A DNA stretch of 64,000 nt from Synergistales bacterium (GCA_018433595.1 JAHDQY010000003.1:1-64000); one strand, 5' to 3'; shown: positions 34,981 through 59,846, counted from the first letter of the stretch. The notes: a model not told the origin generated them from the sequence alone. Program-made: numbers and translations.

Positions 34981-35871
34981 CTACTCGACGAACCGGGGAA
35001 GATACTCCTTCTCCAGCTCCCGGAACAGGCCGAATCCCACGAGGTCTTTGAAGTCGGAGAAGGCGGCGACGAGGTCGGTCCTGCCTTCGGCGATCCGGTC
35101 CCCCTTGATGGCGTTCAGATACTCCACCATTCCCCGGACCGCGGCAAAAAGAGGCCCCACGGGAACGCTCACCCGTCCCACGCCGAGTTCCCGGAGGGTG
35201 TCGATGGAGACGAGGGGCGTTTTCCCCCCAACGACGGCGTCCATGAGGTTGATGCTTACGGGGGCTTTGATCTCCTTCACGGCCTGTTCGATCTGCTCCA
35301 CCGAGCGGGGGGCCTCGACAAAGACGAGGTCGGCGCCGGCGTCGGCATAGGCGTTCCCCCGCCGTATGGCCTCTTCGATGCCCTCCACGGCGATGGCGTC
35401 CGTGCGGGCGTTGATGACGAAATCGGGATCGAGTTCCTCCTTGGCCGCCTTGCAGGCCTTGATCTTCAGCACCATCTCCTCCAGGGGGATGATCTGTTTC
35501 CCCTCCAGGTGCCCGCAACGCTTGGGGAACACCTGATCCTCGATGTTCATTCCTGCCGCTCCCGCCTTGATGAACTCCTTCGTGACGTACATGGCGTTGA
35601 TGCTGTTGCCGTACCCCGTGTCGGCATCGGCCATGACGGGGATGCCGACGGCGTCGACGATGTTTTTGGTGAAGTGGACCACGTCGCTGAAGCCGATGAA
35701 GGCCATGTCGGGCAGGCCGAGATAGGTCGCCGACAGGCCGAAGCCGCTGACCTGGAGGGCCCTGAAGCCGCTCTGTTCGATGAGTTTGGCCGAGATGGCG
35801 TCGTGGGCCCCCGGGCAGACAAGGGCCTTCCGTTCGAGGATCATGTTCTTGAGCATCGTTGTCTTTTTCAC
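34981..35871 (-). CDS. Isocitrate lyase/PEP mutase-family C-C lyase (methylisocitrate or dimethylmalate lyase-like)
   Basis: TIM-barrel lyase of 296 aa. Diagnostic motifs: MADADTGYGN (metal-binding) and IEDQVFPKRCGHLEGKQ with the catalytic Cys of the KRCGH loop, which identifies true 2-hydroxyacid lyases such as PrpB and dimethylmalate lyase rather than PEP mutase. Products would be pyruvate plus a second acid (succinate, propionate or similar). It is the last gene of the ten-gene operon, 17 bp after the TRAP permease. The aconitase-like genes and the absence of a methylcitrate synthase argue for an imported substrate. Confidence 0.88.
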   Translation of the reverse strand: MKKTTMLKNMILERKALVCPGAHDAISAKLIEQSGFRALQVSGFGLSATYLGLPDMAFIGFSDVVHFTKNIVDAVGIPVMADADTGYGNSINAMYVTKEFIKAGAAGMNIEDQVFPKRCGHLEGKQIIPLEEMVLKIKACKAAKEELDPDFVINARTDAIAVEGIEEAIRRGNAYADAGADLVFVEAPRSVEQIEQAVKEIKAPVSINLMDAVVGGKTPLVSIDTLRELGVGRVSVPVGPLFAAVRGMVEYLNAIKGDRIAEGRTDLVAAFSDFKDLVGFGLFRELEKEYLPRFVE

Positions 35872-35888
35872 GGCACAGCTCCTCCTCG

Positions 35889-37808
35889 CTAGATCGAATT
35901 GGACCCTTCCGATGGGGTCCCTTTGGCGCCGGAGAGAATCTTCCGGTCAAGAAGAAAGGCGAGTCCCGCAATGGCCAGGCCTGCCGCGGATGGAGCCGTT
36001 CCCGGGAAGAGAAGGAGCAGGCCGCTGAGAACGAAAGCTCCGCAGATCAGGGGGTTCAGGCGTTCCCTGTGGCTGAACAGCCCGTAGGCGATGCAGACGG
36101 CGCCGATGAATCCCGTCGTCCCGTGGGCGAGGATGTCGGCAAAGGGTGCTCGGGAGACAAGCGCCGGGTTGAGGGCGAAGAAATAGGGGAGAATGAAGGC
36201 CACGGCCCCGAGCCGCACTGCCATGAAGCCCGTTTTGACCCAGTCCGCCTTTGCGATGCCCGCAGCGGCGACGGCCGCCGTGCAGGTCGGAGGAGTGACC
36301 CCTCCGAGGATGGCCCAATAGATGAAGAAAAGGTGTGCCGCCACGGGATCGATGCCCAGGCGGAGCAGGGGCGGCACGAGGATGGAGACGGAAAGGACGT
36401 AGGTGGGCACTACGGGCAGCGATGTTCCGAGGAGGAAGGGGACTGCCGTGGCGATGAGGAGGGAGAGGTAGAGATTGCTCCCTCCGATCTGGAGGATGAC
36501 CCCGCTGATCTTGGGGGCGATGCCCGTGAGGCCGATGAGGTTCACGAGCATGCTTACGGAGACGAGAATGGGGGCGATCTGAGCCACGTCGCGCCCTCCC
36601 TCGGAGAGGGCGGAGACGATCAGCCTCATCGTTTCGCGGAACTTCCCCTTCACGATGCCCAGGGCGAAGAAGACGGCCAGGGCGGAGACGCAGGCGTAAA
36701 ACCCGGCCAGCTGCAGCGGCTGTCCTGCTGCGATGAGATAGAGGAGCACTCCCGTGGGGATGATGAGCCCCGCCATCCGCTCCACCGTCAGGATCTCCCT
36801 CCATAGGGGAATTTCCTCGGAGGGGAGCCTGTCGATCCCCATGCGCACCGTCCGGAAGTGGACTCCGCAGAAGACGCCGGTGTAGTAGAGCAGGCAGGGG
36901 AGAAGAGCGTAGCCGATGATGTGAAAGTAGGAGATGTTCAGGAATTCCGCCATCATGAAAGCGCTGATGCTCATGATGGGCGGCGTGATTCCTCCTCCCG
37001 ACGAGGCGATCGCCTCGACGGCCCCGGCGAACTCGGGCTTGTAGCCCATTTTTTTCATGAGCGGAATGGTGTAGTTTCCCGTGACCATCACATTGGCCAC
37101 GGAGCTGCCCGAGATGCTCCCGAAGAGGGCGCTGGAGACCACGGCGGCCTTTGCGGGACCGCCCGTGAAGCGACCGGTGATGGCCAGGGCGATGTCGATG
37201 AAGGTCCTTCCGCCTCCCGTGGCGGAAAGGAGGGAGCCGAAGATGATGAACATGGAGATGAAGGTGGCCGACATGCCGGTGACGCTCCCGTAGATCCCGA
37301 GAGGGGAGTAGTAGAGGGAATTGATGACGAACTCGAGGTCGATCCCCTTCAGCTTCCACATTCCGGGGAAGGCTTCACCGGTGAAGATATACCCCAGAAG
37401 GAGGGCGACCATCAGGGGAATGGCCGGTCCCACGCTCCTGCGGGCCGACTCGAGGACGAGGAGCATGAGGGCGATTCCCAGGGCGATATCGAGCCTTCCC
37501 GCACCGGTGGTTCCCATGTAGATGTCCAGCGTTTTCACGAAGGCGTTGAGATTGGCGACGATCAGAACCGCGATGAGAAGAATCTCCAAGGGAGCGATCC
37601 CCTCTTCGGGAGGCGCGTCGTCCTTTTTCTTCAGGAAGGGGAAGTTGAGGAGGGCGATGGAGAGGCCGATGGCCACGTGGATCGCCCGAAACTGGATGTC
37701 CAGGAGGTCGGTGAGAAAAATGGGCGCCAGAAGTTGGAAGATCGCGAGAAAGAAGCCGAGAAAGAAAAGAACCTTTGTCTTCATCCTTCCGATGGGTGAC
37801 AACAACAC
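35889..37808 (-). CDS. TAXI-type TRAP transporter fused permease (4TM/12TM)
   Basis: Membrane protein of 639 aa combining the small (about residues 10-150) and large (about 160-560) TRAP subunits, as is usual for TAXI systems. Large-subunit motifs: SSALFGSISGSSVANVMVTG, SSGGGITPPIMSISAFMMAE and GGVTPPTCTAAVAAAGIA. TRAP systems use a sodium or proton gradient to import organic acids. GTG start with GGGAGGG 7-8 nt upstream; the ATG at 37784 is too close to its ribosome-like motif. It partners the TAXI binding protein encoded just upstream. Confidence 0.93.
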   Translation of the reverse strand: MLLSPIGRMKTKVLFFLGFFLAIFQLLAPIFLTDLLDIQFRAIHVAIGLSIALLNFPFLKKKDDAPPEEGIAPLEILLIAVLIVANLNAFVKTLDIYMGTTGAGRLDIALGIALMLLVLESARRSVGPAIPLMVALLLGYIFTGEAFPGMWKLKGIDLEFVINSLYYSPLGIYGSVTGMSATFISMFIIFGSLLSATGGGRTFIDIALAITGRFTGGPAKAAVVSSALFGSISGSSVANVMVTGNYTIPLMKKMGYKPEFAGAVEAIASSGGGITPPIMSISAFMMAEFLNISYFHIIGYALLPCLLYYTGVFCGVHFRTVRMGIDRLPSEEIPLWREILTVERMAGLIIPTGVLLYLIAAGQPLQLAGFYACVSALAVFFALGIVKGKFRETMRLIVSALSEGGRDVAQIAPILVSVSMLVNLIGLTGIAPKISGVILQIGGSNLYLSLLIATAVPFLLGTSLPVVPTYVLSVSILVPPLLRLGIDPVAAHLFFIYWAILGGVTPPTCTAAVAAAGIAKADWVKTGFMAVRLGAVAFILPYFFALNPALVSRAPFADILAHGTTGFIGAVCIAYGLFSHRERLNPLICGAFVLSGLLLLFPGTAPSAAGLAIAGLAFLLDRKILSGAKGTPSEGSNSI

Positions 37809-37880
37809 AGCACATCCCTCCCGAGAGGTTCCCGGCCGCCGATGGGAAGCGCGGCCGGGAGAGATAGGGGACTGTCGTTG

Positions 37881-38906
37881 CTACGGCTTGTACTCCGGCG
37901 GGATGAACCTTTCGGGCACCTCAATGCCCTTTTCCTTGGCGTACCGTATCAGCCCCGCATGGGCGGGAACGACGTCGTCGCCGGCGTTCCTGAAATAATC
38001 CGCAACGGGGTCAAATCCCTTCACCGGGCCGTAGGCGGCGGCGATCTCGTCGAAACCCTCCACGTAGGCCTTCACGATCTGATAGCCGATCTCCTCAGGC
38101 AGGGCCGATGTGGCCACCGCTCCGGCGATGGGACACTCCTCCCAGATGGGACCCACTTCGGGGAATTCCTTGATGCTCCCCTTCTCTCGCTTCAGGAAGG
38201 TCATGTAGGGAATGACCTCCTGTATCTTCTTGACGTCCTCTTCCGAATAGCCGATCACGGTGAGGGGGGTGGTCAGGTTCACCTCGATCAGCGAGGCATC
38301 CATGTTGTTCAGGCCGCTGGATTTCTGCAGGCCGACGATCCGCTTCTCCTTGAGGGCGCTGATGGCGTCGCCCAGGGCCGAAGGGACGAGCTGGACCTTG
38401 TGGCCGAGAATGTCGTTGTACTGTGCCACGTAGGCGGCTGAGGCGGAGCCGGGGATTCCGGGAGAGAATTTCTTCCCCTTGAGGTCTCCGAAGGCGGTCA
38501 CTCCCGAATCCTTGCGGACGTAGAGGCGGTCGGCGAAGATGTTTCTCAGGAAGAGCCAGCGGACCTCCTTGAAGGGCTTGCCCTCGAAACCCTCGATGCC
38601 CTTGTAGAGCTGCAACGATCCCGGAAGGTCGATGGCCATGGCGAAGTCGAAGACGCCCGAACTGATCTTTCGGAGGTTGTCCATCCCCGCGCCGCTTTCC
38701 ACGACGGTGACCTGGATGCCGTTATCGGCCTTGTTGATCACGTTTGCCGCGGCGACGCACCAGGCGTACACTCCCGAGGTGGAAGAGGTGCTTCCCATGT
38801 TCAGGTGAACCTCGGCGCCGGCGGCGCCGGCGGCCCCGGCGAAGAGCAGGGCCGCTAGAAATATCGCGAGCGTCGCTGCGGAGAAGACGCCTTTCTGGAA
38901 CCTCAT
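37881..38906 (-). CDS. TAXI-family TRAP transporter solute-binding protein
   Basis: Exported binding protein of 341 aa. Signal peptide about residues 1-30 (VFSAATLAIFLAALLFAGAA, cleavage near AGAAGAE). The mature part begins VHLNMGSTSSTSGVYAWCVA, the TAXI signature, followed by VVESGAGMDNLRKI and FSPGIPGSASAAY. The ATG at 38906 has AGGAGGG upstream; an earlier in-frame start lacks one. TAXI proteins bind glutamate, 2-oxoglutarate or other carboxylates. It follows a 179-bp non-coding gap containing repeats, which may allow separate expression. Confidence 0.92.
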   Translation of the reverse strand: MRFQKGVFSAATLAIFLAALLFAGAAGAAGAEVHLNMGSTSSTSGVYAWCVAAANVINKADNGIQVTVVESGAGMDNLRKISSGVFDFAMAIDLPGSLQLYKGIEGFEGKPFKEVRWLFLRNIFADRLYVRKDSGVTAFGDLKGKKFSPGIPGSASAAYVAQYNDILGHKVQLVPSALGDAISALKEKRIVGLQKSSGLNNMDASLIEVNLTTPLTVIGYSEEDVKKIQEVIPYMTFLKREKGSIKEFPEVGPIWEECPIAGAVATSALPEEIGYQIVKAYVEGFDEIAAAYGPVKGFDPVADYFRNAGDDVVPAHAGLIRYAKEKGIEVPERFIPPEYKP

Positions 38907-39085
38907 CTTCAGATCCCTCCTGTCAGTCTCTCTCAAACCGCTTTCGAGAAAAGGCTTCCCGCAGGGGTTCCGGTCGCTTTCTGCCTGGAATCACGTCGGT
39001 GCGTTCTTCCATAGCTTCCGTCCCCTATGGTGTTTCGGTCGCTTTCTGCCTGGAATCACGCTCCTTTTCTTCTTCTTTCCCGGCA
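38907..39085. repeat. 25-bp direct repeat pair in the gap before the TAXI binding protein gene
   Basis: The same 25 bp, starting CGGTCGCTTTCTGCC and ending GGAATCACG, occurs at 38971-38995 and 39036-39060, 65 bp apart. A 12-bp hairpin (39072-39100) beside it overlaps the last codons of the hydratase small subunit. The gap has no gene. It may be an mRNA-processing or stability region separating enzyme and transporter expression. Confidence 0.7.
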
Positions 39086-39592
39086 TTACCGGGAAAGAAG
39101 GTACGTTCCGTTCTTTTTCAGATACGCCACCAGGCCGCCCTCCCTGAGGATGTCGAGCATCACCGGGGAGAGGGGAGTCAGGGGTATGATTTTCCCTCTG
39201 TCGGGAAGCTCCACGACGTTTTTTCCGAGATCGACGAGAAGGCTGTCTCCCTCCTCGATCTCCCCGGTATCGCAGAGGAAGGCGGGTATGCCCTGGTTGA
39301 TGGCGTTCCGGAAGAAGATTCTCGCATAGGACTTCGCGAGGATGGCGCCGATCCCGGCGTGCTTGATGGCGATGGGGGCCTGCTCCCTGGAGGAGCCGCA
39401 GCCGAAGTTCCGCCCTGCCGCCACGATGTCTCCCGGGAGGACCTTTTTCGCAAATCCCGGCGCGATGTCCTCGAAAACATGTTCCGCAAGGGCGGCGAAA
39501 TCGAGGGTTTTCGTGTACTTGCCGGCGATGATGTAGTCCGTGTTGATGTCGTCGCCGAACGTGTGAGCCCTTCCCTTCAGAACGCTCTCCAT
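39086..39592 (-). CDS. Aconitase-type hydratase small subunit (LeuD/DmdB-like)
   Basis: Swivelling domain subunit of 168 aa. Motifs: GRAHTFGDDINTDYIIAGKY and GRNFGCGSSREQAP are the classical small-subunit signatures; RIFFRNAINQGIPAFLCD follows. With the large subunit it makes an isopropylmalate isomerase/homoaconitase-type enzyme. The short split form is that of archaeal-type LeuCD and of dimethylmaleate hydratase. ATG with AAGGAGG upstream, 16 bp after the large-subunit gene. No leuA or leuB lies nearby, so leucine synthesis is unlikely. Confidence 0.9.
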   Translation of the reverse strand: MESVLKGRAHTFGDDINTDYIIAGKYTKTLDFAALAEHVFEDIAPGFAKKVLPGDIVAAGRNFGCGSSREQAPIAIKHAGIGAILAKSYARIFFRNAINQGIPAFLCDTGEIEEGDSLLVDLGKNVVELPDRGKIIPLTPLSPVMLDILREGGLVAYLKKNGTYLLSR

Positions 39593-39608
39593 CTTTCGCC
39601 CCTCCTTG

Positions 39609-40868
39609 TCATGAACGGAGATACTTCCGGGGATCGGTGATCTTCCCCTCAAGGGCGCTGGCGGCGCATGTGGCGGGGGAGGCGAGATAGATCTCCGCCT
39701 TGTTGTTGCCCATCCGCCCCTTGAAGTTCCGGTTCGCCGTGGAGATCACCCTTTCGCCGTCGCCGGGGACGCCGAGATGGGTGCCCGGGCAGGGGCCGCA
39801 CCCCGGCGGCAGGAGGGTCGCTCCCGCCTCGACGAGCTGCGCGATGATCCCCTCGGCGAGGGCCTCCGTCAGCACCTTGCGGGAGGGGGGGCAGACCAAA
39901 AGCCGGCAGTTTCCCGAGATTCTCCGGCCCGCCAGGACCCGGGCCGCGATCCGGAGGTCCTCCAGCCGTCCGTTGGTGCATGTGCCGATGTAGGCCTGGT
40001 GGATCTCCGTCCCCGTCACCTCGGTCACCGGGACGACCGAATCCACCGAGTGGGGGCGGCTCACCTGGGGGGGGATGGCCGACGCGTCGATCGCCACCTG
40101 CGAGGCGAAATCGGCGTCGTCGTCGTCCCACAGGGGCTTCGGGACGGGCCCTCCCAGGGCCTTGAGATGGGCGAACGTCTTTTCGTCCGCCTCCATCAGG
40201 CCCGCTTTCGCCCCGCATTCGATAGCCATGTTGCTCAGGGTCATCCGCTCCGAGAGGGACATCTCCCGTACGGTCTCTCCGCAGAGGGAGAGGGCGAGGT
40301 AATCGGCGCCGTCCGATCCGATCTTCCCGATGAGATGGAGCATCAGATCCTTGGCGCAGGTCCCCTCGGGCATGGCTCCCCGGAACTCCACCTTCATGGT
40401 TCCAGGAACGCGGAGCCAGAGTTTCCCCGTGAGCATCACGCCGCTCATGTCCGTCGACCCGATCCCGAAGGCGAAGACGTTCAGGGCGCCGTAGGTGCAG
40501 GTATGGGAGTCGGCTCCCACGGCGAGACCACCGGGGGCGACGAGCCCCTGTTCCACCACCAGCTGGTGGCAGACGCCTTCTCCGGCGTCGAAGAGGGGGA
40601 TCCCCTGAGAGGAGGCGAAGCTCCGGAGAAGCGCGTGGAGGTTGCTGATCCTCTCGTTGGGGCTCGGCGTGGCGTGGTCCAGCACGATCACCATCTTCGA
40701 CGGGTCCCACACCCGCTTTCTCCCGTATTCTTCGAAGGCCTTGATGGCGATGGGGCCCGTGGTGTCGTGGATCATGGCCAGGTCGACATCGGCGATGACG
40801 AAATCCCCCGCCTTCACCTCTTCGTGGACGTGTGCCGATACGATCTTTTCAGCCGCCGTCTTTCCCAC
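39609..40868 (-). CDS. Aconitase-type hydratase large subunit (LeuC/DmdA-like)
   Basis: [4Fe-4S] subunit of 419 aa, the length of the LeuC2/DmdA group. Cluster Cys residues are in YIGTCTNGRLEDLRIAA and PPGCGPCPGTHLG; HTCTYGALNVFAFGIGSTD is also diagnostic. The GTG at 40868, preceded by AAGGAGGG, was chosen; upstream in-frame codons overlap the MmgE/PrpD gene. It should dehydrate or hydrate a 2- or 3-hydroxy di/tricarboxylate. The small subunit follows directly. Confidence 0.9.
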   Translation of the reverse strand: MGKTAAEKIVSAHVHEEVKAGDFVIADVDLAMIHDTTGPIAIKAFEEYGRKRVWDPSKMVIVLDHATPSPNERISNLHALLRSFASSQGIPLFDAGEGVCHQLVVEQGLVAPGGLAVGADSHTCTYGALNVFAFGIGSTDMSGVMLTGKLWLRVPGTMKVEFRGAMPEGTCAKDLMLHLIGKIGSDGADYLALSLCGETVREMSLSERMTLSNMAIECGAKAGLMEADEKTFAHLKALGGPVPKPLWDDDDADFASQVAIDASAIPPQVSRPHSVDSVVPVTEVTGTEIHQAYIGTCTNGRLEDLRIAARVLAGRRISGNCRLLVCPPSRKVLTEALAEGIIAQLVEAGATLLPPGCGPCPGTHLGVPGDGERVISTANRNFKGRMGNNKAEIYLASPATCAASALEGKITDPRKYLRS

Positions 40869-40888
40869 GCCGCCGTCCCTCCTTCGCC

Positions 40889-42274
40889 TCAGCTTCTTGT
40901 CGAGAGGAGCCGGGTGAGTTCGTTGAAGTTCTCCAGCTCTTCCAGGTTGAGGACGGCGTCGACGATTCTGTCCACCTGTTTGCCGTCGGGAAGGGCTTTC
41001 CCGGCGAGGGTCCGGAACTTCCACAGCAGCTCCTCGGGGGTGAAGGGATTCTTCGGGTGCCCCTTGGGGAAGGTTTCCTCGAGGTTGAAGACCTTTCCGT
41101 TTTTCAGGTGCACGTCGACCTTGACGGTGTACCGGAGGTGCCGGGGGAGTTTCTCGATCTCTTCGTCGTGAACCACTTCCACCTTCTTGGCGAACTCGAG
41201 GATTTTAGGATCCTTGATCTTTTCCTCCGTGAACTGGTCGATGAAGGCGTTCCCCTCGAGCAGCGTGACGGCGCAGACGTAGGGGTGGCTGAGCTGGGCG
41301 GCCACCACGCTGGTGATGGCGTCGGCGTCGACGGAGTATTTGTGGGTGATCGACGTGGTGTGGGCCACCACCTTCCCGATGTCGTCGGGCCTGATTTCGG
41401 GGTGGTCCTCCCGGAACTTCCGCAGGGCGCCGATGGTGGTGTGCTTGCTCCTGCAGGTGGAGTAGAACTTGAGGCCGACGCCCAGAAGCTCCCATCGCGA
41501 GCCGAGTTCGCCGCTGGTCCGCTCCACGTCGTAGACATCGTCGGTGAAGCAGTTGTAGAACCCTCCGAACTTGTTCTCGAAGACGTCCTCGATGCCGGTG
41601 AAGCCCTTCTGGGCGAGGAGGGCGCCGAGGATTGCCCCTTCGGACGTCTTGGAGGGGACGATGCGCTTCGCCATGGAGGCGAACTGCACGGCCTGGAGGC
41701 CTCCCGACCAGTTCCCGGCGATGCCCATGGCGTGTCCCATCTGCTCGGGAGTGAGACCGAGCATTTTCCCCACCCCTGCGGTGGAGCCGAAGGGGCAGCA
41801 GGTTCCCGTGTTGTTCCACCCCTGGTGGGCGATCTCCATCCCCACGGGGGCCGCCACCCGGCAGGCCACCTCGTAAGCCAGGGTCGCGGCCGTGAGGAAC
41901 TCCTTTCCGCTCAGGGTCCCCAACATCTCGGCGAAGGCGGTGATGCATCCCAGAACGCCCGTGGAGACGTGGATGATGCCGTCGGTATGGGTGTCGTCAA
42001 GCTCGAAGGAGTTGATGGCCGACCCGTTGAGCATCATCGCGGCGACGACGGAGGTCTTCCTGTCCGTCCCCCAGATGGAGGCCTCCTGCCTGTCGGTGCG
42101 GTTTTCCAGCACCTCCCGGTAGATCCGCATCCAGGGCGTGGTCGAGCCGAAGAGCCCGCAGCCGTAGCAGTCGAGCATCACCTGCTTCAGGTGGCTGAGG
42201 ACTTCCGAGGGGATCTCCTCGTAGCGGAGTTCCGACGAAAACGTCGACAGGCGTTCGTTGATCCTGTCCATCAT
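40889..42274 (-). CDS. MmgE/PrpD-family protein, third in operon
   Basis: Protein of 461 aa of the 2-methylcitrate dehydratase/aconitate decarboxylase/iminodisuccinate epimerase family. Typical elements: MMLNGSAINSFELDDTHTDG near residue 90 (usual H/E-LDDxH), WNNTGTCCPFGSTAGVGKML and YSTCRSKHTTIGALRKF. ATG with AAGGGGG upstream. The same frame stays open far upstream through the neighbouring genes, but that part does not look like protein. One of three divergent paralogues here. Family members act on small branched carboxylates without cofactors. Confidence 0.88.
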   Translation of the reverse strand: MMDRINERLSTFSSELRYEEIPSEVLSHLKQVMLDCYGCGLFGSTTPWMRIYREVLENRTDRQEASIWGTDRKTSVVAAMMLNGSAINSFELDDTHTDGIIHVSTGVLGCITAFAEMLGTLSGKEFLTAATLAYEVACRVAAPVGMEIAHQGWNNTGTCCPFGSTAGVGKMLGLTPEQMGHAMGIAGNWSGGLQAVQFASMAKRIVPSKTSEGAILGALLAQKGFTGIEDVFENKFGGFYNCFTDDVYDVERTSGELGSRWELLGVGLKFYSTCRSKHTTIGALRKFREDHPEIRPDDIGKVVAHTTSITHKYSVDADAITSVVAAQLSHPYVCAVTLLEGNAFIDQFTEEKIKDPKILEFAKKVEVVHDEEIEKLPRHLRYTVKVDVHLKNGKVFNLEETFPKGHPKNPFTPEELLWKFRTLAGKALPDGKQVDRIVDAVLNLEELENFNELTRLLSTRS

Positions 42275-42291
42275 GGTGCATTCCCCCTTCT

Positions 42292-43659
42292 TCAGATGTG
42301 GAGCAGCTTCGCGAAGGAGCCGATCTCCTCGCGGGCGTCGATGGCCATGGCGGCGGAGAGGATCTCGTCCGCCCTCTTTCTGGGGATCACATCTTCGGTG
42401 ATGTCCCGGAATTTCTCGAAAAGCTCCTCGTCTGACAGGGGGTTTTCGGGATCTCCCTTGGCATGGTCGATGCGGGTGGAGGCGCCCTCGCCCTTCCGGC
42501 CCCGGATCTCGACGATCATTGATCTCGGATTGGGGTAGAGCCTTTGGATCTCGTCGTCCACCTCGATCCGGACGAGATCTGCCACGCGCCGCACCCGGGG
42601 GTCGGCGACGGCTTCCTCCTCGTACTCCCGGAGCCCCGCCCTGCCGCGGACGATGATGGAGGCGATGCCGTACTGGATGCTCAGGCGGGCGTGGAGGGGG
42701 GTCCTGTAGTCGGGAATGTCCGACCCCTGTTTGGCGTTGCGGTGGGTGCGCACCGTTATGGATTCGATCTCCTCGGGGAGGAAGCGGTGCTGTTCCAGGT
42801 CTTTCTGCGTCGCCTCGATGGCGTAGTGGACGTAGCGGCACGAACAGAAGGGCTTGAAGTAGATGCGCAGGAGATGCCAGTCCGTCCCGAGCCCCCCGTC
42901 GACGACGGAGAGGTCGGCCTTTTCGGTGAAGCAGTGGAAAAAACCCAGCCGCCCCTCGAGAATCTCCGAGGGTCCCGTCATGCCGTCCCTGGCGAGCATG
43001 GCGCTGAGGATGCCGTTTTTCGCGGCGTTGCCCGAGTGGAGATGCTTTGAAATGGAACCGTCGATCTCGTACTGGTTGATCCCCGAGGCCAGGCTCCCCG
43101 CCAGGCCGAGGGCGTTGACGGTGACGTCGGCCGAAAGGCCGAGGATCTTTGCGGCGGCGGCGGCGGTCCCGAAGGTCGCAACGGTTCCCGTGGGGTGGAA
43201 GCCCCGGAGGTAATGGCCCGGGTTGATGGCCGTCCCGATGCGGAGGGAGACTTCGTATCCCGCCACGATGGCCTCGATGAGGCGCTTTCCGGAAACGCCT
43301 TCGGCTTCCCCGAGGGCCAGACATGCCGGGACGATGGACGCTCCGGGGTGATAGGTGGCGTGTTTCGAGCCGTCGTCCAGCTCCAGGGCATGAGACGCCA
43401 TACCGTTCACCAGCGCCGCCGTCATGGCCGACCGCCGGAGGGGACTTCCCGCGATGACGGCCTCGCCTCTTTCTTCGAGCCTCTCGGCGAAGCCTCTCCC
43501 CGCCTGTCCGGTCAGGGAGAGGCGGCTTCCGGCGAGCAGGGCTCCCGAGGTATCGGCCAGGCAGCGCCGGGCCTGGGAAATCACTTCCTGAGGGAGAAAG
43601 TCGAAACGCAGCGACGCAGAGAACTCGGCGAGCCTTTCCGTCAGGGTGGCCACGGGCAT
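42292..43659 (-). CDS. MmgE/PrpD-family protein, second in operon
   Basis: About 455 aa. Family elements: LVNGMASHALELDDGSKHA, YHPGASIVPACLALGE, GFHPTGTVATFGTAAAAAKI and FCSCRYVHYAIEATQ. Three possible starts lie close together (GTG 43662, ATG 43659, GTG 43653); the last has the best spacing to GAGGGG, but ATG is given here. It begins 6-15 bp after the DUF4387 stop. It resembles the first MmgE/PrpD protein of the operon more than the third. Confidence 0.87.
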   Translation of the reverse strand: MPVATLTERLAEFSASLRFDFLPQEVISQARRCLADTSGALLAGSRLSLTGQAGRGFAERLEERGEAVIAGSPLRRSAMTAALVNGMASHALELDDGSKHATYHPGASIVPACLALGEAEGVSGKRLIEAIVAGYEVSLRIGTAINPGHYLRGFHPTGTVATFGTAAAAAKILGLSADVTVNALGLAGSLASGINQYEIDGSISKHLHSGNAAKNGILSAMLARDGMTGPSEILEGRLGFFHCFTEKADLSVVDGGLGTDWHLLRIYFKPFCSCRYVHYAIEATQKDLEQHRFLPEEIESITVRTHRNAKQGSDIPDYRTPLHARLSIQYGIASIIVRGRAGLREYEEEAVADPRVRRVADLVRIEVDDEIQRLYPNPRSMIVEIRGRKGEGASTRIDHAKGDPENPLSDEELFEKFRDITEDVIPRKRADEILSAAMAIDAREEIGSFAKLLHI

Positions 43660-43665
43660 CACCCC

Positions 43666-43992
43666 TCACTCTTCCCAGGGAACTTCCAGAGAGAAGAGGG
43701 GGGCGTACTGCTGGCAGCCGTACACGTCCGTCTCGCCGGGACCGCCGCTGGGGCTCTTCCTCTGGATGTTGGCCTTGATGCCCATTCCGGCGTCGAAGAA
43801 CATGAAATCGAGGATCTTCTCTTCGGGCAGATCGTAGGCGTCGGCCACGGCCTTCCGGGTGATGGTCCCCGACGCCTTCACCTTCTCGTAGACCTCGCGG
43901 TCGGCGAAGATGATCTCCAGGGTGATCATGAAACTGCCGGCGTTCTTGCTCCGGATCGTTCTGGCCAGGTCGCAGATGTTTTTCGTCTTCAT
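43666..43992 (-). CDS. DUF4387 protein (AtuA-associated)
   Basis: Protein of 108 aa with the complete DUF4387 pattern: LARTIRSKNAGSFMITLEII, ADREVYEKVKASGTITRKAV and FFDAGMGIKANIQRKSPSGG. This family co-occurs with DUF1446/AtuA proteins, sometimes fused to them, so the two probably form one enzyme. Here the partner gene is two positions upstream, separated by an MmgE/PrpD gene. It overlaps that gene by 4 bp. Biochemical role unknown. Confidence 0.88.
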   Translation of the reverse strand: MKTKNICDLARTIRSKNAGSFMITLEIIFADREVYEKVKASGTITRKAVADAYDLPEEKILDFMFFDAGMGIKANIQRKSPSGGPGETDVYGCQQYAPLFSLEVPWEE

Positions 43993-45386
43993 GGCGTATG
44001 GAACCTCCCGAAATGATCAAGAATATGGCGGTACTCCACCCTGTCCATGGCGGAGTCCACGCAGATTTTCCAGAGTCCCTCCACGAATTCCGGCGGGTAA
44101 TAGGGCGCGAGCATGGCCGTCAGTTTTTCCGTCAGGTCGCCGTCGGTCACGGGGTTTTCCGGCTCCCCCTTGGCCACGGGAACGGCCTTTTCGAAGCTCC
44201 GGCCGTCCTTCAGGACCAGGCGGAGCCAGGCCCCTCTCTCTTCAGGGTAGACGGCGTTCATCCGCTCGTCCTCATCGATCGTCACCGCCGCGGCGACGCG
44301 CCGCAGCTCCTCGTCCCGAAGCAGCTCGGGCGTGTAGTCCTGGAGGGTCACGTTCCCCTTTCTCAGGGCGACGGCGAGGGAGAAGGGCATGCTGAACATG
44401 GCCTCCTCGAAGGTGTCGGGAAGAAAGACCTGCCCCACCTCGACGATTCCCAGCCGGTAGGTCCTCACGGAGAGGGATTCCACCTCCCTCTCGGTGCATC
44501 CCAGGGCGGACCGTGCCTCCCTGGCCAGGTCAATGGCGGCGTGGCAGTGTCTGCAGGTGGGGTAGAGCTTGGTGTAGGTCAGGAGGATCTCCCAGCGCCG
44601 CCCCAGCTCTCCCGTGAGGGCTTCTTCCGAGCACTCCCCGGCGCACATGGCCTTGAACCAGCCGTGATGTCCCTCGAAAAGGGTCCGGGGGGATTTCGCC
44701 CCCCTCAGAGCCAGCTCCGAGGCGAGCACTCCCGCCAGGGCGGCCTTCCCCGGCTGAAGCGGCTTGATGCCCGGATGATCGTGGAGCATCTCCTGCAATC
44801 CCGCGCTCTGGAGGCCGCCCATGGAGACGGCGTAGGCGAACCGGTCGGCGGGAAGGGCGAGAATGGAGGCGCATCCGGCCGCCGCGCCGAGAGTGCCGCA
44901 GGTCCCTGTGGAGTGGAAGCCCCGCTTCAGGTGGGAGGGGTTGATGGCCCTCGCCGCCCGAAGCATGACGTCGTAGCCGATGACGATGCCCTTCAGGATC
45001 TCGGGGAAAGAGACGCCCCTCTTCTCGCCGAGGGCGAGCACGGCCGGAATGACGGCGACGGCCGGATGGGAAGTCCCCCACCGGTGCCCGTCGTCGAGCT
45101 CGATGGAGTGGGCCATGACTCCCATGGCCATCGCCGCGCCGGGAGCCGGGACTTTCGCCCCGTCGCAGAGGATGGTGGCCTCCTCCCTGCCGCCGATCTC
45201 CCTGGCGTAGGCGTTGCAGATTGCCGCGAGCTCTCCTTCCTTGAATCCGGCGGCGGTCTCGCAGAGGAAATCCATGAGAACTCTCCGCGCCTTTTCCATG
45301 ACCTCCTTCGGAATGTCTCCGGGCTCAAGGGGCGCGTAGAAGTCCGCCAGCCTCGTCAGAAGGGTGTCCGTGACGTTCGCTTCCAT
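43989..45386 (-). CDS. MmgE/PrpD-family protein, first in operon
   Basis: Protein of 465 aa. Family elements: GVMAHSIELDDGHRWGTSHP, AVAVIPAVLALGEKRGV, KRGFHSTGTCGTLGAAAGCA and YPTCRHCHAAIDLAREA. Its stop overlaps the DUF4387 start and its start is 4 bp from the DUF1446 stop, so it is embedded in the AtuA/DUF4387 pair. Dehydratase, isomerase or decarboxylase activity on a branched carboxylate is possible; the sequence does not choose between them. Confidence 0.88.
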   Translation of the reverse strand: MEANVTDTLLTRLADFYAPLEPGDIPKEVMEKARRVLMDFLCETAAGFKEGELAAICNAYAREIGGREEATILCDGAKVPAPGAAMAMGVMAHSIELDDGHRWGTSHPAVAVIPAVLALGEKRGVSFPEILKGIVIGYDVMLRAARAINPSHLKRGFHSTGTCGTLGAAAGCASILALPADRFAYAVSMGGLQSAGLQEMLHDHPGIKPLQPGKAALAGVLASELALRGAKSPRTLFEGHHGWFKAMCAGECSEEALTGELGRRWEILLTYTKLYPTCRHCHAAIDLAREARSALGCTEREVESLSVRTYRLGIVEVGQVFLPDTFEEAMFSMPFSLAVALRKGNVTLQDYTPELLRDEELRRVAAAVTIDEDERMNAVYPEERGAWLRLVLKDGRSFEKAVPVAKGEPENPVTDGDLTEKLTAMLAPYYPPEFVEGLWKICVDSAMDRVEYRHILDHFGRFHTP

Positions 45387-45390
45387 GGGC

Positions 45391-46779
45391 TCAGGCTCCC
45401 GAGACGGTCTCGAAGGAGTACCGGAAGATGGCGGGATCGAGAGGGTCCTCCAGGGTGAGGAGATGGTCCACCGTCCACTGGTAGCACTTGTTCTTCGGGA
45501 AGAGCGGTTCGTCGGTGAGGAGGGCCACCGACCCGCCGGAGGAGTTCATCTGTCCCGGGTAGCTCATGTAGAAGAAGCGGAACTTGGCGCACTTGGCTAC
45601 GGAGGTGGCCAGCTCCAGATCCTTGGAGATGACCTCGATGACGATGGCCACTTCGTGGGAGAGGGTCGTTTCCACGGGCTCGTTCTCCTTCATCACGGCG
45701 TTTTGCCCGTAGGTGTGGAAGAAGAGCTCGTACTGATCGTCCCGTGCCGGGCCGATGATGTCGGAGACTTTCGCCCGCGTATCGGCGAGGATCCGGTCGA
45801 GATTGGCGATGGCCCGGGTGTCCCGGATGCCCACCAGGTGGTAGACCCGGTGTCCCGCCTCGCCGGCCCCTTCGAGCTTCACCTTGTAGCTGCCGTCGGG
45901 GGAGGGGACGAAGAGGCTGCCCGACACCTTGCAGATCCGATCCGTCTGGGCCTCGTACCGGCTGGCGTGCATATCCAGAATGCCCCCCGGCAGGGCCTGG
46001 ATGAAGGGGTTGGTCCGCTCGTACATGGAGTGGGCCGCCACGCTGTGAGGGGTTGCCTGCTGGTCGGGGTGCATGGGCTCGATGGTGAAGTTGTCGTCGT
46101 AAACCGTGGCGATGATGGACTCCTTCACCTTCTGGGGCCAGCAGACCAGGGAAGCGCACTCGGCCGCCTTGCCCATGTGCAGGCTGATCCCCCTGTCGAA
46201 GCCCCTGAAAATCGGATAGGCGGCCAGAACGGCGTCGTCGCAGGCCCGCCCGGCGATGATGACGTCCGCCCCCTCGGCCAGGGCGTGAGCGATCTGTTCC
46301 ACCCCCATGCTCGCCGTGACGTTGGTGGTGTTGTCCAGCACCTCGTCGGAGAGGGGGAAGGAGGCTCCCAGCGGCTCCGTTCCGCCTTTCCTGACGCGCT
46401 CCCGCAGCGTGTCCAGGGGGATCTGGGAGTAGATGAGGGCCATTTTGAAAGGTTCCATCTTCCGCTCCCGGGCCACCGTCCGGATGATGTCGGCGTAAAG
46501 GTCGACCCCCCTGTCCGTCCCCGTGGTGCTGCAGGACCCCACGATCATGGGGACCTTCTTCTTTCGGGCCTCGACGAGAGTGATCTCCAGATCGTGCCGC
46601 TCCCACTCGATGGGGTTGTGGGGCTTGTCGGCCCCCAGAAAGGTGGGGCCGGCATCGGCGGTCCCGGCGTCGGCGGCGAAACAGTCGATGTCTCTCTTGA
46701 CGCCTTCGTAAAAGGTCCCCTTTTCGATGATGTTGTCTCCCAGGTTGCCCGTCGAAACCAGCAGAGAAACTTTCCGCAT
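45391..46779 (-). CDS. AtuA/DUF1446-family acyclic terpene utilisation-like protein
   Basis: Protein of 462 aa. It has an AtuA-like N terminus (VSLLVSTGNLGDNIIEKGTF; ADAGTADAGPTFLGADKP) and the ADVIIAGRACDDAVLAAYP motif. AtuA was named from terpenoid catabolism, but many members stand in unrelated carboxylate clusters and no reaction is firmly known. It is the first gene of the operon, after a leader of nearly 390 nt, with GGAAGGGGA before the ATG. Pairing with DUF4387 supports one two-part enzyme. Confidence 0.87.
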   Translation of the reverse strand: MRKVSLLVSTGNLGDNIIEKGTFYEGVKRDIDCFAADAGTADAGPTFLGADKPHNPIEWERHDLEITLVEARKKKVPMIVGSCSTTGTDRGVDLYADIIRTVARERKMEPFKMALIYSQIPLDTLRERVRKGGTEPLGASFPLSDEVLDNTTNVTASMGVEQIAHALAEGADVIIAGRACDDAVLAAYPIFRGFDRGISLHMGKAAECASLVCWPQKVKESIIATVYDDNFTIEPMHPDQQATPHSVAAHSMYERTNPFIQALPGGILDMHASRYEAQTDRICKVSGSLFVPSPDGSYKVKLEGAGEAGHRVYHLVGIRDTRAIANLDRILADTRAKVSDIIGPARDDQYELFFHTYGQNAVMKENEPVETTLSHEVAIVIEVISKDLELATSVAKCAKFRFFYMSYPGQMNSSGGSVALLTDEPLFPKNKCYQWTVDHLLTLEDPLDPAIFRYSFETVSGA

Positions 46780-47140
46780 CGAGATATCCCCTTCCGTGGT
46801 CTGATAGTGTCCGGTGCCGTTCCCGATTTCCGAAAAGAAGCCCTGCGCCCTCCGCCCGGACTGTGCGGCGGCAGGGCGCCCCTCCCCGAGGGATCGTCAT
46901 CCGAAAAAGAGCACGTCGACATCGGCAAGGCCCTGTTCCGGGACGGCCAGGAAGCGGCCTGGAGCGTTCAAGGCGGCGGCGTTGAGCGTAGATGGAGGGC
47001 GATGAATGGGCTTACAATGGCAGCGATCGGTGCCGCGGATCTTCCGGGCCCGGAGCGGACCATGAGGCGGAGACATCGGCGACGAGAGAGCCCCGGCTCG
47101 TTTTCCCGGCGGATCCTTCAGGGCTGAACGGAGAAGATTT

Positions 47141-47162
47141 TTTCGGAAGTTCACTTCCGAAA
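47141..47162. promoter_or_regulatory. Operator O1: 22-bp palindrome of the NrpR type (GGAA-N6-TTCC)
   Basis: TTTCGGAAGT (47141-47150), TC, ACTTCCGAAA (47153-47162): perfect 10-bp arms. Its core GGAA-GTTCAC-TTCC fits the operator known for Methanococcus NrpR. It lies about 6-27 nt downstream of the predicted start of the carboxylate operon transcript, where a bound protein would block transcription. Confidence 0.65.
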
Positions 47163-47174
47163 CTTTACGAGAAC

Positions 47175-47204
47175 ATGATACCCAAGCAAACGATATGTTG
47201 TCAA
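47175..47204 (-). promoter_or_regulatory. Promoter of the ten-gene carboxylate operon
   Basis: On the minus strand TTGACA (47199-47204), 18-bp spacer, TATCAT (47175-47180). Predicted start near 47168. Confidence 0.7.
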
Positions 47205-47226
47205 GGGGAAGAAAGGATGTTATAAA
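47198..47226 (+). promoter_or_regulatory. Promoter of the NrpR-like regulator
   Basis: TTGTCA (47198-47203), 17-bp spacer, TATAAA (47221-47226). Its -35 shares six bases with that of the opposite promoter. Confidence 0.65.
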
Positions 47227-47297
47227 CAAACGCAGCAATTGCAAGCATTCTGGAGGAGGCGCCATGAAAAAATCCCCATCGGGCGCGGAGGCAAGTG

Positions 47298-47315
47298 ACG
47301 GAATCCTATTTCCGT
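47298..47315. promoter_or_regulatory. Operator O2: second GGAA-N6-TTCC site before the regulator
   Basis: ACGGAA (47298-47303), 6 bp, TTCCGT (47310-47315). Located about 48 bp before the regulator start codon and inside its leader; suited to autoregulation. Confidence 0.55.
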
Positions 47316-47362
47316 AGTCTGAAAAAGCAGAAAGACCCTATTTCTAGTGATGGAGGCCTCTC

Positions 47363-48367
47363 ATGCTTGAGATTGAAGAGTATCCCGAAACGGTTGTCGA
47401 AATCATGAGGATCCTGTATTTCTCGGGGAAGTTGCAGACCTCGGGAGATCTTCGTGAAGCCCTTGAAAAGAAGGGGATCGGGGTGGAGTCGCGGACGATC
47501 CGGTATCACCTGACGAACCTCGAAAAGAACTCCCTGGTGCGGCGGTTCGGAAATCGGGGGGTGCTGCTCACCGGCAAGGGGGTCGAGGAGGCCAAGATGC
47601 TTTTGGTCTTCGACCGCGTCGGCGGCCTGGCCATGGAGACGGAACGCCTCTCCCTGGACTGCGACTACACCCCCCAGCGGGGGCGGGGGAGCATCATGGT
47701 GAATACCCTTCTCGTCGACGAAGGCAGAACGGCCGAGGCGCTGAGGATACTTGAAGCGGCCGCGGAAAGCGGCGTCATCATCTCGTCCCGCCTCGGAATC
47801 CTCGGCCCCGGCGAACGGATGTGGAACTGCGAGGTTCCCCCGGGGAAAAACGCCCTTATCGGCGTTTCCGGCAGGAACTACGACATTCTGCTTCAGCAGG
47901 TGAGGATACCGACGGAGACGAGCGCCACCGTCCTTTATCGCATAGAGGGGAATCGGCCCAAGGGCATCGCCGAAATCCTCTCCCATGCGGGGACGACCAT
48001 CAGCCCCGGGGAGCTGCTCATCCGGGGGAAGTACACTTCCGTTTCGGAGGTGGTCAAAGGCGGCTGCGGCCTCGTCACCGCAGCGATCAAGACCTTCCCC
48101 TTCGTCTACTTCGACGAAGTGAGGAGGATCATGGACAGCCTCGACAGGAGCCTCTTTTCCGGCCTGATGGAGATCAAGGCGCAGATCCCCCAGCCCTACC
48201 GGATGTCCTACAAGGACAGAAGCAAAGGCTACATGCTCGTCTACGGCGGCGCCAACTTCTTCGCCCCCCTGGTGGAAAGGGGCATCGCCGAAAGGCTCTT
48301 CATCAGTCACAGCCTCTATGAGGCGGAGCGCATGATCCCGATCGGCGAGCTGATCGGGGCCTTCTGA
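47363..48367 (+). CDS. NrpR-family (DUF128) transcriptional regulator with winged helix
   Basis: Protein of 334 aa. Residues about 1-70 form a winged helix (VVEIMRILYFSGKLQTSGDL, then VESRTIRYHLTNLEKNSLVR), and residues about 75-310 are one NrpR/DUF128 effector domain (GRGSIMVNTLLVDEG; GCGLVTAAIKTFPF). Archaeal NrpR represses nitrogen genes and releases DNA on binding 2-oxoglutarate. Here the single-domain version is divergent from a carboxylate operon, so a 2-oxoacid or pathway carboxylate is a plausible effector. A third GGAA-N6-TTCC site (48027-48040) lies within the gene. No Rossmann or nitrogen-metabolism genes are near. Confidence 0.85.
   Translation: MLEIEEYPETVVEIMRILYFSGKLQTSGDLREALEKKGIGVESRTIRYHLTNLEKNSLVRRFGNRGVLLTGKGVEEAKMLLVFDRVGGLAMETERLSLDCDYTPQRGRGSIMVNTLLVDEGRTAEALRILEAAAESGVIISSRLGILGPGERMWNCEVPPGKNALIGVSGRNYDILLQQVRIPTETSATVLYRIEGNRPKGIAEILSHAGTTISPGELLIRGKYTSVSEVVKGGCGLVTAAIKTFPFVYFDEVRRIMDSLDRSLFSGLMEIKAQIPQPYRMSYKDRSKGYMLVYGGANFFAPLVERGIAERLFISHSLYEAERMIPIGELIGAF
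48027..48040. promoter_or_regulatory. Intragenic GGAA-N6-TTCC site (O3)
   Basis: GGAAGTACACTTCC inside the regulator coding sequence; apart from the two central bases its core equals that of O1 (GGAAGT..ACTTCC). It could be an auxiliary site for looping or a coincidence. Confidence 0.35.
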
Positions 48368-55312: not shown

Positions 55313-56587
55313 ATGAGTGTCGACGACGTGATTTCGATGCGCCGTCTCTTTCATCGCCATGCCGAGCGGGGTTGGGAGGAGTTCTGGACGACGGCCTTCG
55401 TCGCCTCCCGTCTGGAGGCGCTGGGCTTTCGCCTTTTCCTCGGCTCCGAGGCCGTCGAGGAGCGGTCTGCCATGGGGCGGCCCGGCGGAGATCGGCTTGC
55501 AGAGGCCCGAAAGAGGGCCCTCGCCTGGGAGGCCGATGCCGCCCTGATCAATCGCATCGGCGACTGGACGGGCGTCGTGGCCCTTCTCGATACGGGGCGC
55601 CCAGGGCCCGTGACGGCCTTCCGCTTCGATCTCGATGCCGTCGAAACGCCCGAGTGCCGCGAGAGGGGGCACCGTCCCTTCGACGAGGGCTTCGATGCTC
55701 TCGACGAGAAGGTGGCTCATGCCTGCGGGCACGACGGCCACCTGGCCATGGGGCTGGCCCTGGCCTCCAGGCTGGTCTCCCGCAAGGAAAGCCTTTCAGG
55801 ACGCTTCAAGCTTCTCTTTCAGCCCGCCGAGGAGGGAGTTCGGGGCGGCAGGGCCATGACCGAAAAGGGGCACCTCGACGACGTCGATTTCCTCTTCGGC
55901 CTTCATCTGGCCGGAGAGTTCGCAAGCGGCGTCGTCGGCGCCGGCTGCAGCGACTTTCTCTGCACCACCAAAGTCGATGCCTTTTTCCGGGGTGTGGCGG
56001 CCCATGCCGGAATGGCTCCCAACGAAGGGCGCAACGCCCTGCTTGCGGCGGCTACGGCCGTCCTGGGACTTCACTCCATCGCTCCCCATCACGAGGGCGC
56101 GAGCCGCATCAACGTCGGTCTCCTTCGGGCCGGGACGGGGCGCAATGTCGTCCCTGAGAGGGCCGAGCTTTTCTTCGAGACGCGGGGACGGACTTCGGCC
56201 ATTGATCGCTACGTCTACGAGCGGGCCCTCGAAGTCCTCGACGGGGCGGCCCGGACCCAGGGGGTAACCGTCGAAAGCCGCCTTGCCGGAGGGGCCGTCG
56301 ACGCCCGAAGCCATCCCGACCTTGTCGCTCTCGTCGCCGAGAAGGCCTTGGCCGTCGACGGAATCGACCATGTCGAGAGAGAGGGGCGTATCGGCGGCAG
56401 CGAAGATATCTCCTGGATGATGCGCCGCGTCGAGGAGCGGGGCGGCAAGGCCTGTTACTTCATCGTCGGCGCCGACAGAACGGCGGGACACCATCACGGC
56501 CGTTTCGACTTCGACGAGGCCGTCCTTCCCCGAGGCGTCGCCCTGTTGGTGGCTCTCGCCGAGGCCGTTGGAGGCGACAGGGGATGA
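55313..56587 (+). CDS. M20-family amidohydrolase (AbgA/AbgB-like)
   Basis: Zinc or manganese amidohydrolase of 424 aa. Metal-binding segments: RFDLDAVE, VAHACGHDGHLAMGLALA, FQPAEEGVRGG and DRTAGHHHGRFDFDEA. The insert EADAALINRIGDWTGVVALL and IGGSEDISWMMRRVEERGGK resemble aminobenzoyl-glutamate hydrolase subunits. The ATG at 55313 has AGGAGG 9 nt upstream; the longer in-frame start is unsupported. No partner subunit or transporter is adjacent, so the substrate (an N-acyl amino acid or dipeptide-like compound) is open. Confidence 0.87.
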   Translation: MSVDDVISMRRLFHRHAERGWEEFWTTAFVASRLEALGFRLFLGSEAVEERSAMGRPGGDRLAEARKRALAWEADAALINRIGDWTGVVALLDTGRPGPVTAFRFDLDAVETPECRERGHRPFDEGFDALDEKVAHACGHDGHLAMGLALASRLVSRKESLSGRFKLLFQPAEEGVRGGRAMTEKGHLDDVDFLFGLHLAGEFASGVVGAGCSDFLCTTKVDAFFRGVAAHAGMAPNEGRNALLAAATAVLGLHSIAPHHEGASRINVGLLRAGTGRNVVPERAELFFETRGRTSAIDRYVYERALEVLDGAARTQGVTVESRLAGGAVDARSHPDLVALVAEKALAVDGIDHVEREGRIGGSEDISWMMRRVEERGGKACYFIVGADRTAGHHHGRFDFDEAVLPRGVALLVALAEAVGGDRG

Positions 56588-57009
56588 AAGCGGTTTTCTT
56601 CAGCAGATGCCTGGAGTGTGAAGTTCCGCACATATGGCTGCTGTTTGTTGTATGATACATATGTCTTCTCAAACGGCGAGACACGAGAGTTTTCCTGTTT
56701 GATTTTGCGGGAGCCTGCAATCGATTCCCCCTTTCGGATCCTGTAAAAGACCTTTCGGTTTGCGCCCCGCAAAGAGAGTCTTCCAAAATAGGACCCAATC
56801 AGCCCAAGGTCAGGGCCTCTCCAGAAAACTCCATGACAGAGAGGTTCCGTGTGGGCTGTCAAAATATAAAAAGGTGGTTAAACTTCAGGCATTATTGAAA
56901 TGCCTGTGGTGTCGCAGAAGTAGGGCTTTTATGTTTTTGGCCTTGGATGATTTTGGAGAATGACAGGGTTATCCAAGGCGACGTGGCCGTTTTTGTAGGG
57001 GGAATTGCT
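56588..57009. other. A+T-rich non-coding stretch before the acquired radical SAM gene
   Basis: This 422-bp region has no gene I can support. It contains two CATATG copies (56631-56636, 56658-56663) around a possible -10 TATGAT (56651-56656), and an 8-bp-arm palindrome CAGGCATT-N5-AATGCCTG (56886-56906). Base composition falls steadily towards the gene that follows. Confidence 0.5.
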
Positions 57010-58389: not shown

Positions 58390-58475
58390 GGAACGCTGAT
58401 ATCTCCTTGCCGTCTGCATCCTGGACAAGGCGGTGCTGCGGGTGCGGAAGAGATCCTGAGGCGATGAGGCGGCTT

Positions 58476-58533
58476 CGGCGATCGTTGATCTGCCGCTGTC
58501 TGGAGTGGGCCGGGACCCGTTGGGGATCCCGGC
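58476..58533 (+). repeat. 58-bp block shared with the metQ leader (copy A)
   Basis: These 58 bp align without gaps to 62723-62780 with about 51 identities. It contains the hairpin below. Unlike copy B it lies upstream of the promoter of the next gene, with no Met-rich leader reading frame before it, so it looks like a degenerate or re-used copy. Confidence 0.7.
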
Positions 58534-58538
58534 CCACT
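58504..58538 (+). terminator. Terminator after the radical SAM gene
   Basis: Stem AGTGGGCCGGGA (58504-58515) with TCCCGGCCCACT (58527-58538), extended inside by CCC/GGG with one bulged A, then TT. About 115 bp after the radical SAM stop. Confidence 0.65.
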
Positions 58539-58593
58539 TTATGGTGTAAGAAACGACGAACGGCAGCCTGCTCGACTCCGCCAGAGCCTTTCC

Positions 58594-58622
58594 TTGACAA
58601 GCAGTCCAACAAAAGGCATAAT
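58594..58622 (+). promoter_or_regulatory. Promoter of the NitT/TauT-type transporter operon
   Basis: TTGACA (58594-58599), 17-bp spacer, CATAAT (58617-58622), about 65 bp before the first gene. Confidence 0.7.
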
Positions 58623-58688
58623 TCTTATGTCAAATTATTATATTATCGAGAGAGGGGTCATCGTTCAATCATGAGGAGGGGTCATTCG

Positions 58689-59798: not shown

Positions 59799-59806
59799 GA
59801 CTTTGA

Positions 59807-59824
59807 GGGGGCCTTCGGGCCCCC
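59807..59824 (+). terminator. UUCG-capped hairpin after the binding-protein gene
   Basis: GGGGGCC-TTCG-GGCCCCC, 7-bp stem and a stable TTCG tetraloop, 8 bp after the stop and within the operon. Probably raises binding-protein expression over the permease by stabilising the upstream mRNA or by partial termination. Confidence 0.65.
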
Positions 59825-59846
59825 TTCCTCCGGAGAGGTGGCTTTT

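Follow-up and report, generated by a model that had tools for sequence, protein, structure and literature searches.

Ten consecutive genes of a Synergistales bacterium (GCA_018433595.1), together with the divergently transcribed gene of an NrpR-type regulator, appear to act as a single inducible unit for the breakdown of a branched organic acid. This acid would have a 1,4-dicarboxylate core and most likely be a C6–C7 tricarboxylate of the aconitate or methylcitrate kind, a reading that we give a probability of about 0.6. The genes lie in a stretch of 64,000 nucleotides (JAHDQY010000003.1:1-64000), here called the window, in which all coordinates are counted unless another locus is named. Gene content, conservation, family membership, active-site patterns and promoter/operator architecture were computed; every reaction, the reaction order, the ligand and the substrate are read from the sequence.

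In the scheme that we propose, a TAXI/TRAP transporter would import the acid and the MmgE/PrpD proteins would take the proton at C2, with MmgE1 dehydrating and MmgE2 epimerising the free acid. The two-subunit hydratase HydLS would add water to the double bond, giving a 2-hydroxy acid, and two CoA-independent lyases, namely AtuA/DUF4387 (of the citramalate-lyase type) and a PrpB-like lyase, would carry out cleavage, the products being a 2-oxo acid (pyruvate or another) together with acetate, propionate or succinate. The NrpR-type regulator would repress through GGAA-N6-TTCC at the transcription start and be released on binding a 2-oxoglutarate-like acid. The logic of import, dehydration/isomerisation, rehydration and cleavage had been put forward in the initial annotation, and the gene families present are consistent with it. 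At slightly less than even odds, we would go further and see here an undescribed CoA-independent pathway in which two different carbon–carbon lyases and three differently specialised MmgE proteins act on a specific branched tri- or dicarboxylate that is imported, under an NrpR turned from nitrogen control to sensing of this acid. The unit has the following features.

45391–46779, minus strand: AtuA-family protein (citramalate-lyase subunit-A-like), 462 aa; PF07287 2.5e-19, PDB 9erq CmlA 3.5e-71
43989–45386, minus strand: MmgE1, MmgE/PrpD protein; PF03972 4e-57, full His/Lys active-site set
43666–43992, minus strand: DUF4387 protein, probably the partner subunit in the AtuA-type lyase; PF14330 2.2e-35
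42292–43659, minus strand: MmgE2, MmgE/PrpD protein with IDS-epimerase-type Tyr; family match and active-site signature
40889–42271, minus strand: MmgE3, MmgE/PrpD protein in which Asn stands at two active-site His positions; family match and active-site signature
39609–40868, minus strand: HydL, aconitase/IPMI/homoaconitase-type large subunit; TIGR02086 539 bits (cut-off 410), PF00330 2e-99, PDB 4nqy and 4kp2
39086–39592, minus strand: HydS, hydratase small subunit; TIGR02087 197 bits, Aconitase_C 1.2e-17, closest PDB entry 2pkp
37881–38906, minus strand: TAXI solute-binding protein of a TRAP transporter; TIGR02122 113 bits (cut-off 84), PDB 1us4 1.3e-18
35889–37784, minus strand: fused TRAP permease (DctQM), one gene; TIGR02123 499 bits (cut-off 321), PF06808 1e-77
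34981–35871, minus strand: PrpB/PEP-mutase-family lyase with KRCGH; PEP_mutase 7.6e-59, three-residue insertion NLMDAVVGGKTP
47363–48367, plus strand: divergent NrpR-type regulator (HTH_12 and one NRD1_2 region); PF01995 7.3e-42, PF08461 5.6e-11
47145–47158, no strand: putative NrpR-type operator GGAA-N6-TTCC, beginning about 16 bp past the -10 box from which the operon is read
47300–47313, no strand: second putative NrpR-type operator, near the regulator start
47175–47204, minus strand: promoter-like site of the operon, TTGACA-N18-TATCAT, matching at 11 of 12 positions

The ten genes run leftward from 46779 to 34981 in the order AtuA, MmgE1, DUF4387, MmgE2, MmgE3, HydL, HydS, TAXI, TRAP and lyase, and every part of the ten-gene operon named in the initial annotation was found where it had been placed. 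Intergenic spacing from AtuA to HydS is -4 to +23 bp, with wider gaps before the TAXI gene (about 180 bp) and before the TRAP permease (about 95 bp). Both the solute-binding protein and the fused permease score above the TAXI-TRAP cut-offs given above. Two separate TRAP genes, at 35947–37359 and 37375–37815, were rejected because that reading uses the wrong frame; a single fused gene encodes the permease, which brings the number of genes to exactly ten. The extent first given for the operon, 34981–46779, thus held the right genes but left out the regulator at 47363–48367, which is part of the unit, and the control region at 46780–47362.

A class-wide search with AtuA, covering 183 genomes, gave close copies (at least 77% identity) in 22, the window's own included, and none in the three other genomes of its genus, and this patchy distribution suggests transfer or loss. 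All ten genes stand in one locus in 15 genomes from nine genera and five families, all of the taxonomic order Synergistales, a count that is a lower bound as loci of further genomes are broken by contig ends. Such recurrence in 15 genomes and nine genera means that the gene set is not due to chance. Among the named carriers are several Synergistaceae MAGs, Acetomicrobium sp. and Thermovirga sp.; in genomes of the Acetomicrobium type (genus g3) the set forms two divergently oriented blocks, one running from AtuA to MmgE3 and the other from HydL to the lyase and including the regulator. Outside Synergistales, GBS-1 has nine of the genes and the regulator together, with the lyase about 13 kb off, and an Armatimonadota MAG has eight cluster genes without the transporter. 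A regulator orthologue adjoins the cluster in GBS-1 and in those Synergistales loci that are not broken by contig ends. No conserved flanking genes were seen, save a small secreted protein at some loci and a few genes among near relatives, and the edges of the unit are therefore well defined. The secreted protein, of about 130 residues and with no Pfam match, is encoded at L052 4051–4455, L053 1198–1590 and L091 8746–9135, the last of these in Atribacteria. In genome G024 (L047 3050–3937) the lyase is 86% identical to that of the window and the rest of the cluster 50–78%, suggesting that the lyase alone may have been exchanged.

One locus counts against our reading. The Atribacteria MAG (L091, JAFGSC010000004.1, regions 1883–5533 and 12416–13873) has only TRAP-TAXI-AtuA-MmgE1-DUF4387, and a search of that genome gave no lyase match, so that the two lyases may serve different acids. 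The neighbours of this core are an MttB-family methyltransferase and a protein of 1216 residues that carries a MutL domain at its C-terminus; being a different context, they may be a clue to what AtuA-MmgE1-DUF4387 does alone.

The regulator, the only NrpR-type protein of its genome, has the HTH_12 and NRD1_2 domains of archaeal NrpR and is accompanied by the motif GGAA-N6-TTCC, the operator consensus of the archaeal protein. In the control regions, 8,552 bp in all, the motif was found 20 times, at 15 of 21 loci, as compared with a mean of 0.25 sites and at most 3 in dinucleotide shuffles and with 0 or 1 for altered spacings. The site lies next to the promoter, as in archaea, and eight relatives have the same order of promoter and then operator, 10–16 bp from the -10 box; a second GGAA-N6-TTCC near the regulator start is found in the window and in four relatives. 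We read this arrangement as predicted repression at the operon promoter together with autoregulation. Genome-wide, CGGAA-N6-TTCCG occurs five times, with two of these at the cluster, and the other three may be chance since a reversed control pattern was found eleven times. A third GGAA-N6-TTCC lies inside the regulator gene, at 48027–48040. Archaeal NrpR is released by 2-oxoglutarate (PMC4902934), and by analogy the inducer here may be an acid related to 2-oxoglutarate. Whereas archaeal NrpR controls nitrogen genes, this one is found in a bacterium and is dedicated to a carbon-acid operon.

The presence of AtuA/DUF1446 and DUF4387 had been recognised from the start, but the pair had been left without a role. 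The only solved relative of the cluster AtuA is PDB 9erq, 'Citramalate lyase, subunit A (cmlA)' (3.5e-71); a literature search for a paper on this structure found none. DUF4387 accompanies AtuA in every locus read, and in the window it sits between MmgE1 and MmgE2, with only MmgE1 separating it from AtuA. An AtuA-family large subunit paired with DUF4387, the make-up of citramalate lyase CmlAB, also occurs in glutamate fermentation by the methylaspartate pathway: in the Synergistales locus L104 the two genes lie between those for methylaspartate ammonia-lyase and a fumarase-type mesaconase (partner genes recognised by eye), and in Prevotella nigrescens the order is glmS-glmL-glmE-mal-AtuA-DUF4387-fumarate hydratase, the pair occupying in both the citramalate-lyase position of the pathway. 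A DUF1446 gene stands at that position in Enterobacteriaceae (PMC4682846). AtuA/DUF4387 is probably a carbon–carbon lyase of the citramalate-lyase type, and the operon would thus hold two carbon–carbon lyases. The cluster AtuA proteins, 68–92% identical within their own set, do not group with the methylaspartate-context copies, which are 53–56% identical to 9erq (54–56% for L104, L115 and L116), but form a separate clade at 30–33% (about 32%), and their substrate therefore probably differs from that of CmlA. Across the two groups 43 residues are invariant, with many fixed differences between them. Unlike methylaspartate clusters, the neighbourhood of our cluster has no Glm, Mal or mesaconase genes.

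The three divergent MmgE/PrpD proteins reported initially (family matches of 2e-69 to 4e-57) are the only ones in their genome, and they have distinct active-site patterns. By sequence all three are nearer to IDS epimerase and IRG1-type (cis-aconitate decarboxylase) structures than to PrpD, and none reaches a PrpD equivalog, the PrpD models giving at most 61.5 against cut-offs of 458–950. Known members of the family have a common 1,4-dicarboxylate core and proton abstraction at C2, for which the residues have been listed (PMC12290011). MmgE1 keeps all the listed 1,4-dicarboxylate-binding residues and has no Tyr at the position of Tyr145 of IDS epimerase. MmgE2 keeps them all and also has the Tyr (HYLxGFHPTGT), and so shares both its catalytic Tyr and its carboxylate-binding residues with IDS epimerase. 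In MmgE3, two of the usual active-site His positions are occupied by Asn in every orthologue, and its structure model (mean pLDDT 64) was too poor for use. That the three active sites are distinct and fixed speaks for separate roles without redundancy, and we infer the role names dehydratase for MmgE1 and epimerase for MmgE2. The likeness to IDS epimerase and methylsuccinate isomerase, known members of the same family, ends with a different operon, the missing Tyr of MmgE1 and the two missing His of MmgE3, the last of which also weighs against our overall scheme.

That the hydratase is a two-subunit enzyme of the aconitase type was confirmed by the PF00330 and Aconitase_C matches. HydL and HydS are members of the IPMI/homoaconitase families and reach no equivalog cut-off, whether for LeuCD (LEU2 451 versus 611, leud 162 versus 246) or for HacAB (HacA_Meth 463 versus 550, HacB_Meth 182 and 168 versus 230). 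HydL is best matched by IPMI/citramalate isomerase, and the closest solved structure to HydS is the small subunit of methanogen homoaconitase, 2pkp (3e-46), with SSREQA in both. In homoaconitase, the Arg of the loop YLRT binds the extra carboxylate. HydS has instead GKYTKT in every orthologue read, with the Lys invariant, as compared with YLRT in 2pkp, YLVY in citramalate/IPMI isomerase and YLVT in the LeuD encoded on contig C26 of the same genome. The recognition region of the small subunit sets substrate choice (PMC7308503), and Lys in place of Arg hints at a third carboxylate and thereby at a tricarboxylate substrate, although this argument is indirect. The KYTKT loop is also found in a hydratase of L071 (2983–15635), where it is paired with a related lyase; the same locus encodes a TctABC-like transporter, a further hydratase, an amidohydrolase and two PrpF proteins, and would be a sister pathway, likely for another acid. 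Lyase–hydratase pairs outside the cluster occur in L061 and L062 as well.

These findings also bear on a C5 route, in which an IRG1-like MmgE would decarboxylate aconitate to itaconate/citraconate, HydLS would hydrate this to citramalate, and citramalate would be cut to pyruvate and acetate, the (S)-isomer by AtuA/DUF4387 and its counterpart by the PrpB-like lyase. Structures of IDS epimerase and cis-aconitate decarboxylase are far better matches to the MmgE proteins than PrpD is, the relatives of AtuA/DUF4387 are citramalate lyase, and the best match of HydL agrees with such a route. We nonetheless find it unlikely, with the cluster AtuA clade apart from the methylaspartate-context CmlA by many fixed differences and with a HydS loop unlike that of the citramalate-type isomerase 3vba.

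The lyase, whose KRCGH motif had been picked out initially, was confirmed by its PEP_mutase match and is the only full PEP-mutase-family member of its genome. Its best NCBIfam match is TIGR02317 prpB, with 247.5 against a cut-off of 354. It has CGHLEGK and the three-residue insertion, versus CGHRPNK and TEFG in PrpB; the insertion is common to the lyase subfamily, and paralogues of 40–54% identity are without it, as are PrpB and petal death protein. Judged by this insertion, which PrpB lacks, the cluster lyase is not PrpB. An AF2 model (pLDDT 86) has the ordinary family fold and is closest to petal death protein 1zlp, followed by 2-methylisocitrate lyases and related enzymes, with dimethylmalate lyase (3fa3) further down. 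The tree resolves neither the base of the subfamily nor the cluster copies as one clade, and is thus no proof of a single origin of the cluster lyases.

The host genome (99.65% complete) was searched by family and read directly in chosen stretches only. In agreement with the earlier view that no methylcitrate or citrate synthase is involved, the family search gave no full-length synthase; the only citrate-synthase-family match was a protein of 255 residues on C26 (L012 1402–2169), covering the C-terminal part of the model (positions 123–348 of 357). Its length does not suffice for a citrate synthase, and it may be an enzyme resembling citryl-CoA lyase. PrpF was sought as PF04303, with no match in this genome. 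The lack of a full-length synthase and of PrpF and the sub-cut-off PrpB and PrpD scores rule out the ordinary methylcitrate cycle, as had been maintained; a methylcitrate synthase elsewhere in the genome, named at the outset together with propionate induction as a ground for refutation, was not found by the family search. That cycle (PrpBCD with AcnD/PrpF or AcnB) likewise has PrpD-, aconitase- and PrpB-family enzymes in one operon; ours has no PrpC and no PrpF but a heterodimeric hydratase, three MmgE proteins and an importer. Its lower half might still be imagined to act on imported 2-methylcitrate or 2-methylaconitate, through a PrpD-like MmgE, the hydratase and the PrpB-like lyase, to pyruvate and succinate. 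The three reaction types would come in the same order, the homoaconitase-like HydS loop suits a tricarboxylate and prpB is the best family match of the lyase. Against these stand, however, the low prpB and PrpD scores, the CGHLEGK motif and the insertion, the missing full-length synthase, and two extra MmgE proteins and AtuA/DUF4387 without explanation, making this version rather improbable.

We are equally doubtful of a 2,3-dimethylmalate route, for which the initial annotation had drawn a parallel with nicotinate fermentation. An MmgE would here replace methylitaconate isomerase, HydLS would be dimethylmaleate hydratase, and the lyase would yield pyruvate and propionate. Eubacterium barkeri has the same kind of two-subunit hydratase and KRCGH-family lyase, a likeness at the level of protein family; HydS falls in the LeuD/DmdB small-subunit family, the lyase is near petal death protein, in the fold group of 3fa3, and in L071 a related lyase and hydratase adjoin two PrpF proteins. 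The parallel is in this sense possible, but the genome has no PrpF-type (methylitaconate) isomerase, unlike E. barkeri, AtuA/DUF4387 would be left without a role, and the HydS loop is homoaconitase-like, with Lys where homoaconitase has Arg and IPMI a hydrophobic residue, which suits a third carboxylate over a second methyl group.

That the hydratase might be the genome's only LeuCD, a possibility raised at the outset, and the operon biosynthetic, is very improbable in spite of the IPMI/homoaconitase membership of HydL and HydS, as the importer and two lyases point to breakdown, and LeuCD identity itself is rejected since leuC, leuD and leuB stand together elsewhere, on C26, where the loop is the usual YLVT. 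The same contig has, at about 55750–60000 (L082 10754–15000), tetrahydromethanopterin-type C1 genes, encoding methenyl-H4MPT cyclohydrolase (PF02289, 1e-111), a CitG and pterin-binding fusion and a GXGXG protein. On C11 (L081 6835–14551), two tandem LeuCD-like hydratases are followed by what look by eye like citrate/citramalate lyase subunits (CitDEF-like); this gene group would be a second carboxylate pathway of the organism.

Returning to the inducible catabolic unit, our best guess as to its substrate places an aconitate- or methylcitrate-like tricarboxylate first, the C5 acids itaconate/citramalate next and dimethylmalate third. None of its enzymes attains an equivalog cut-off, which counts against this explanation and means that no reaction is fixed, and the enzymes could also work in the reverse direction, towards synthesis.

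The enzyme families are known; their combination and its control appear to be new. Most genomic MmgE/PrpD, AtuA and DUF4387 proteins are without an assigned reaction, and several of them stand together in this operon, next to an importer with a measurable ligand and a dedicated repressor with defined operators, so that one binding assay could assign functions to many proteins. The predicted DNA-binding sites of the repressor offer a direct way to find the acid, which would reveal the task of an NrpR repressor in a bacterial cell and identify a carbon source of these anaerobes.
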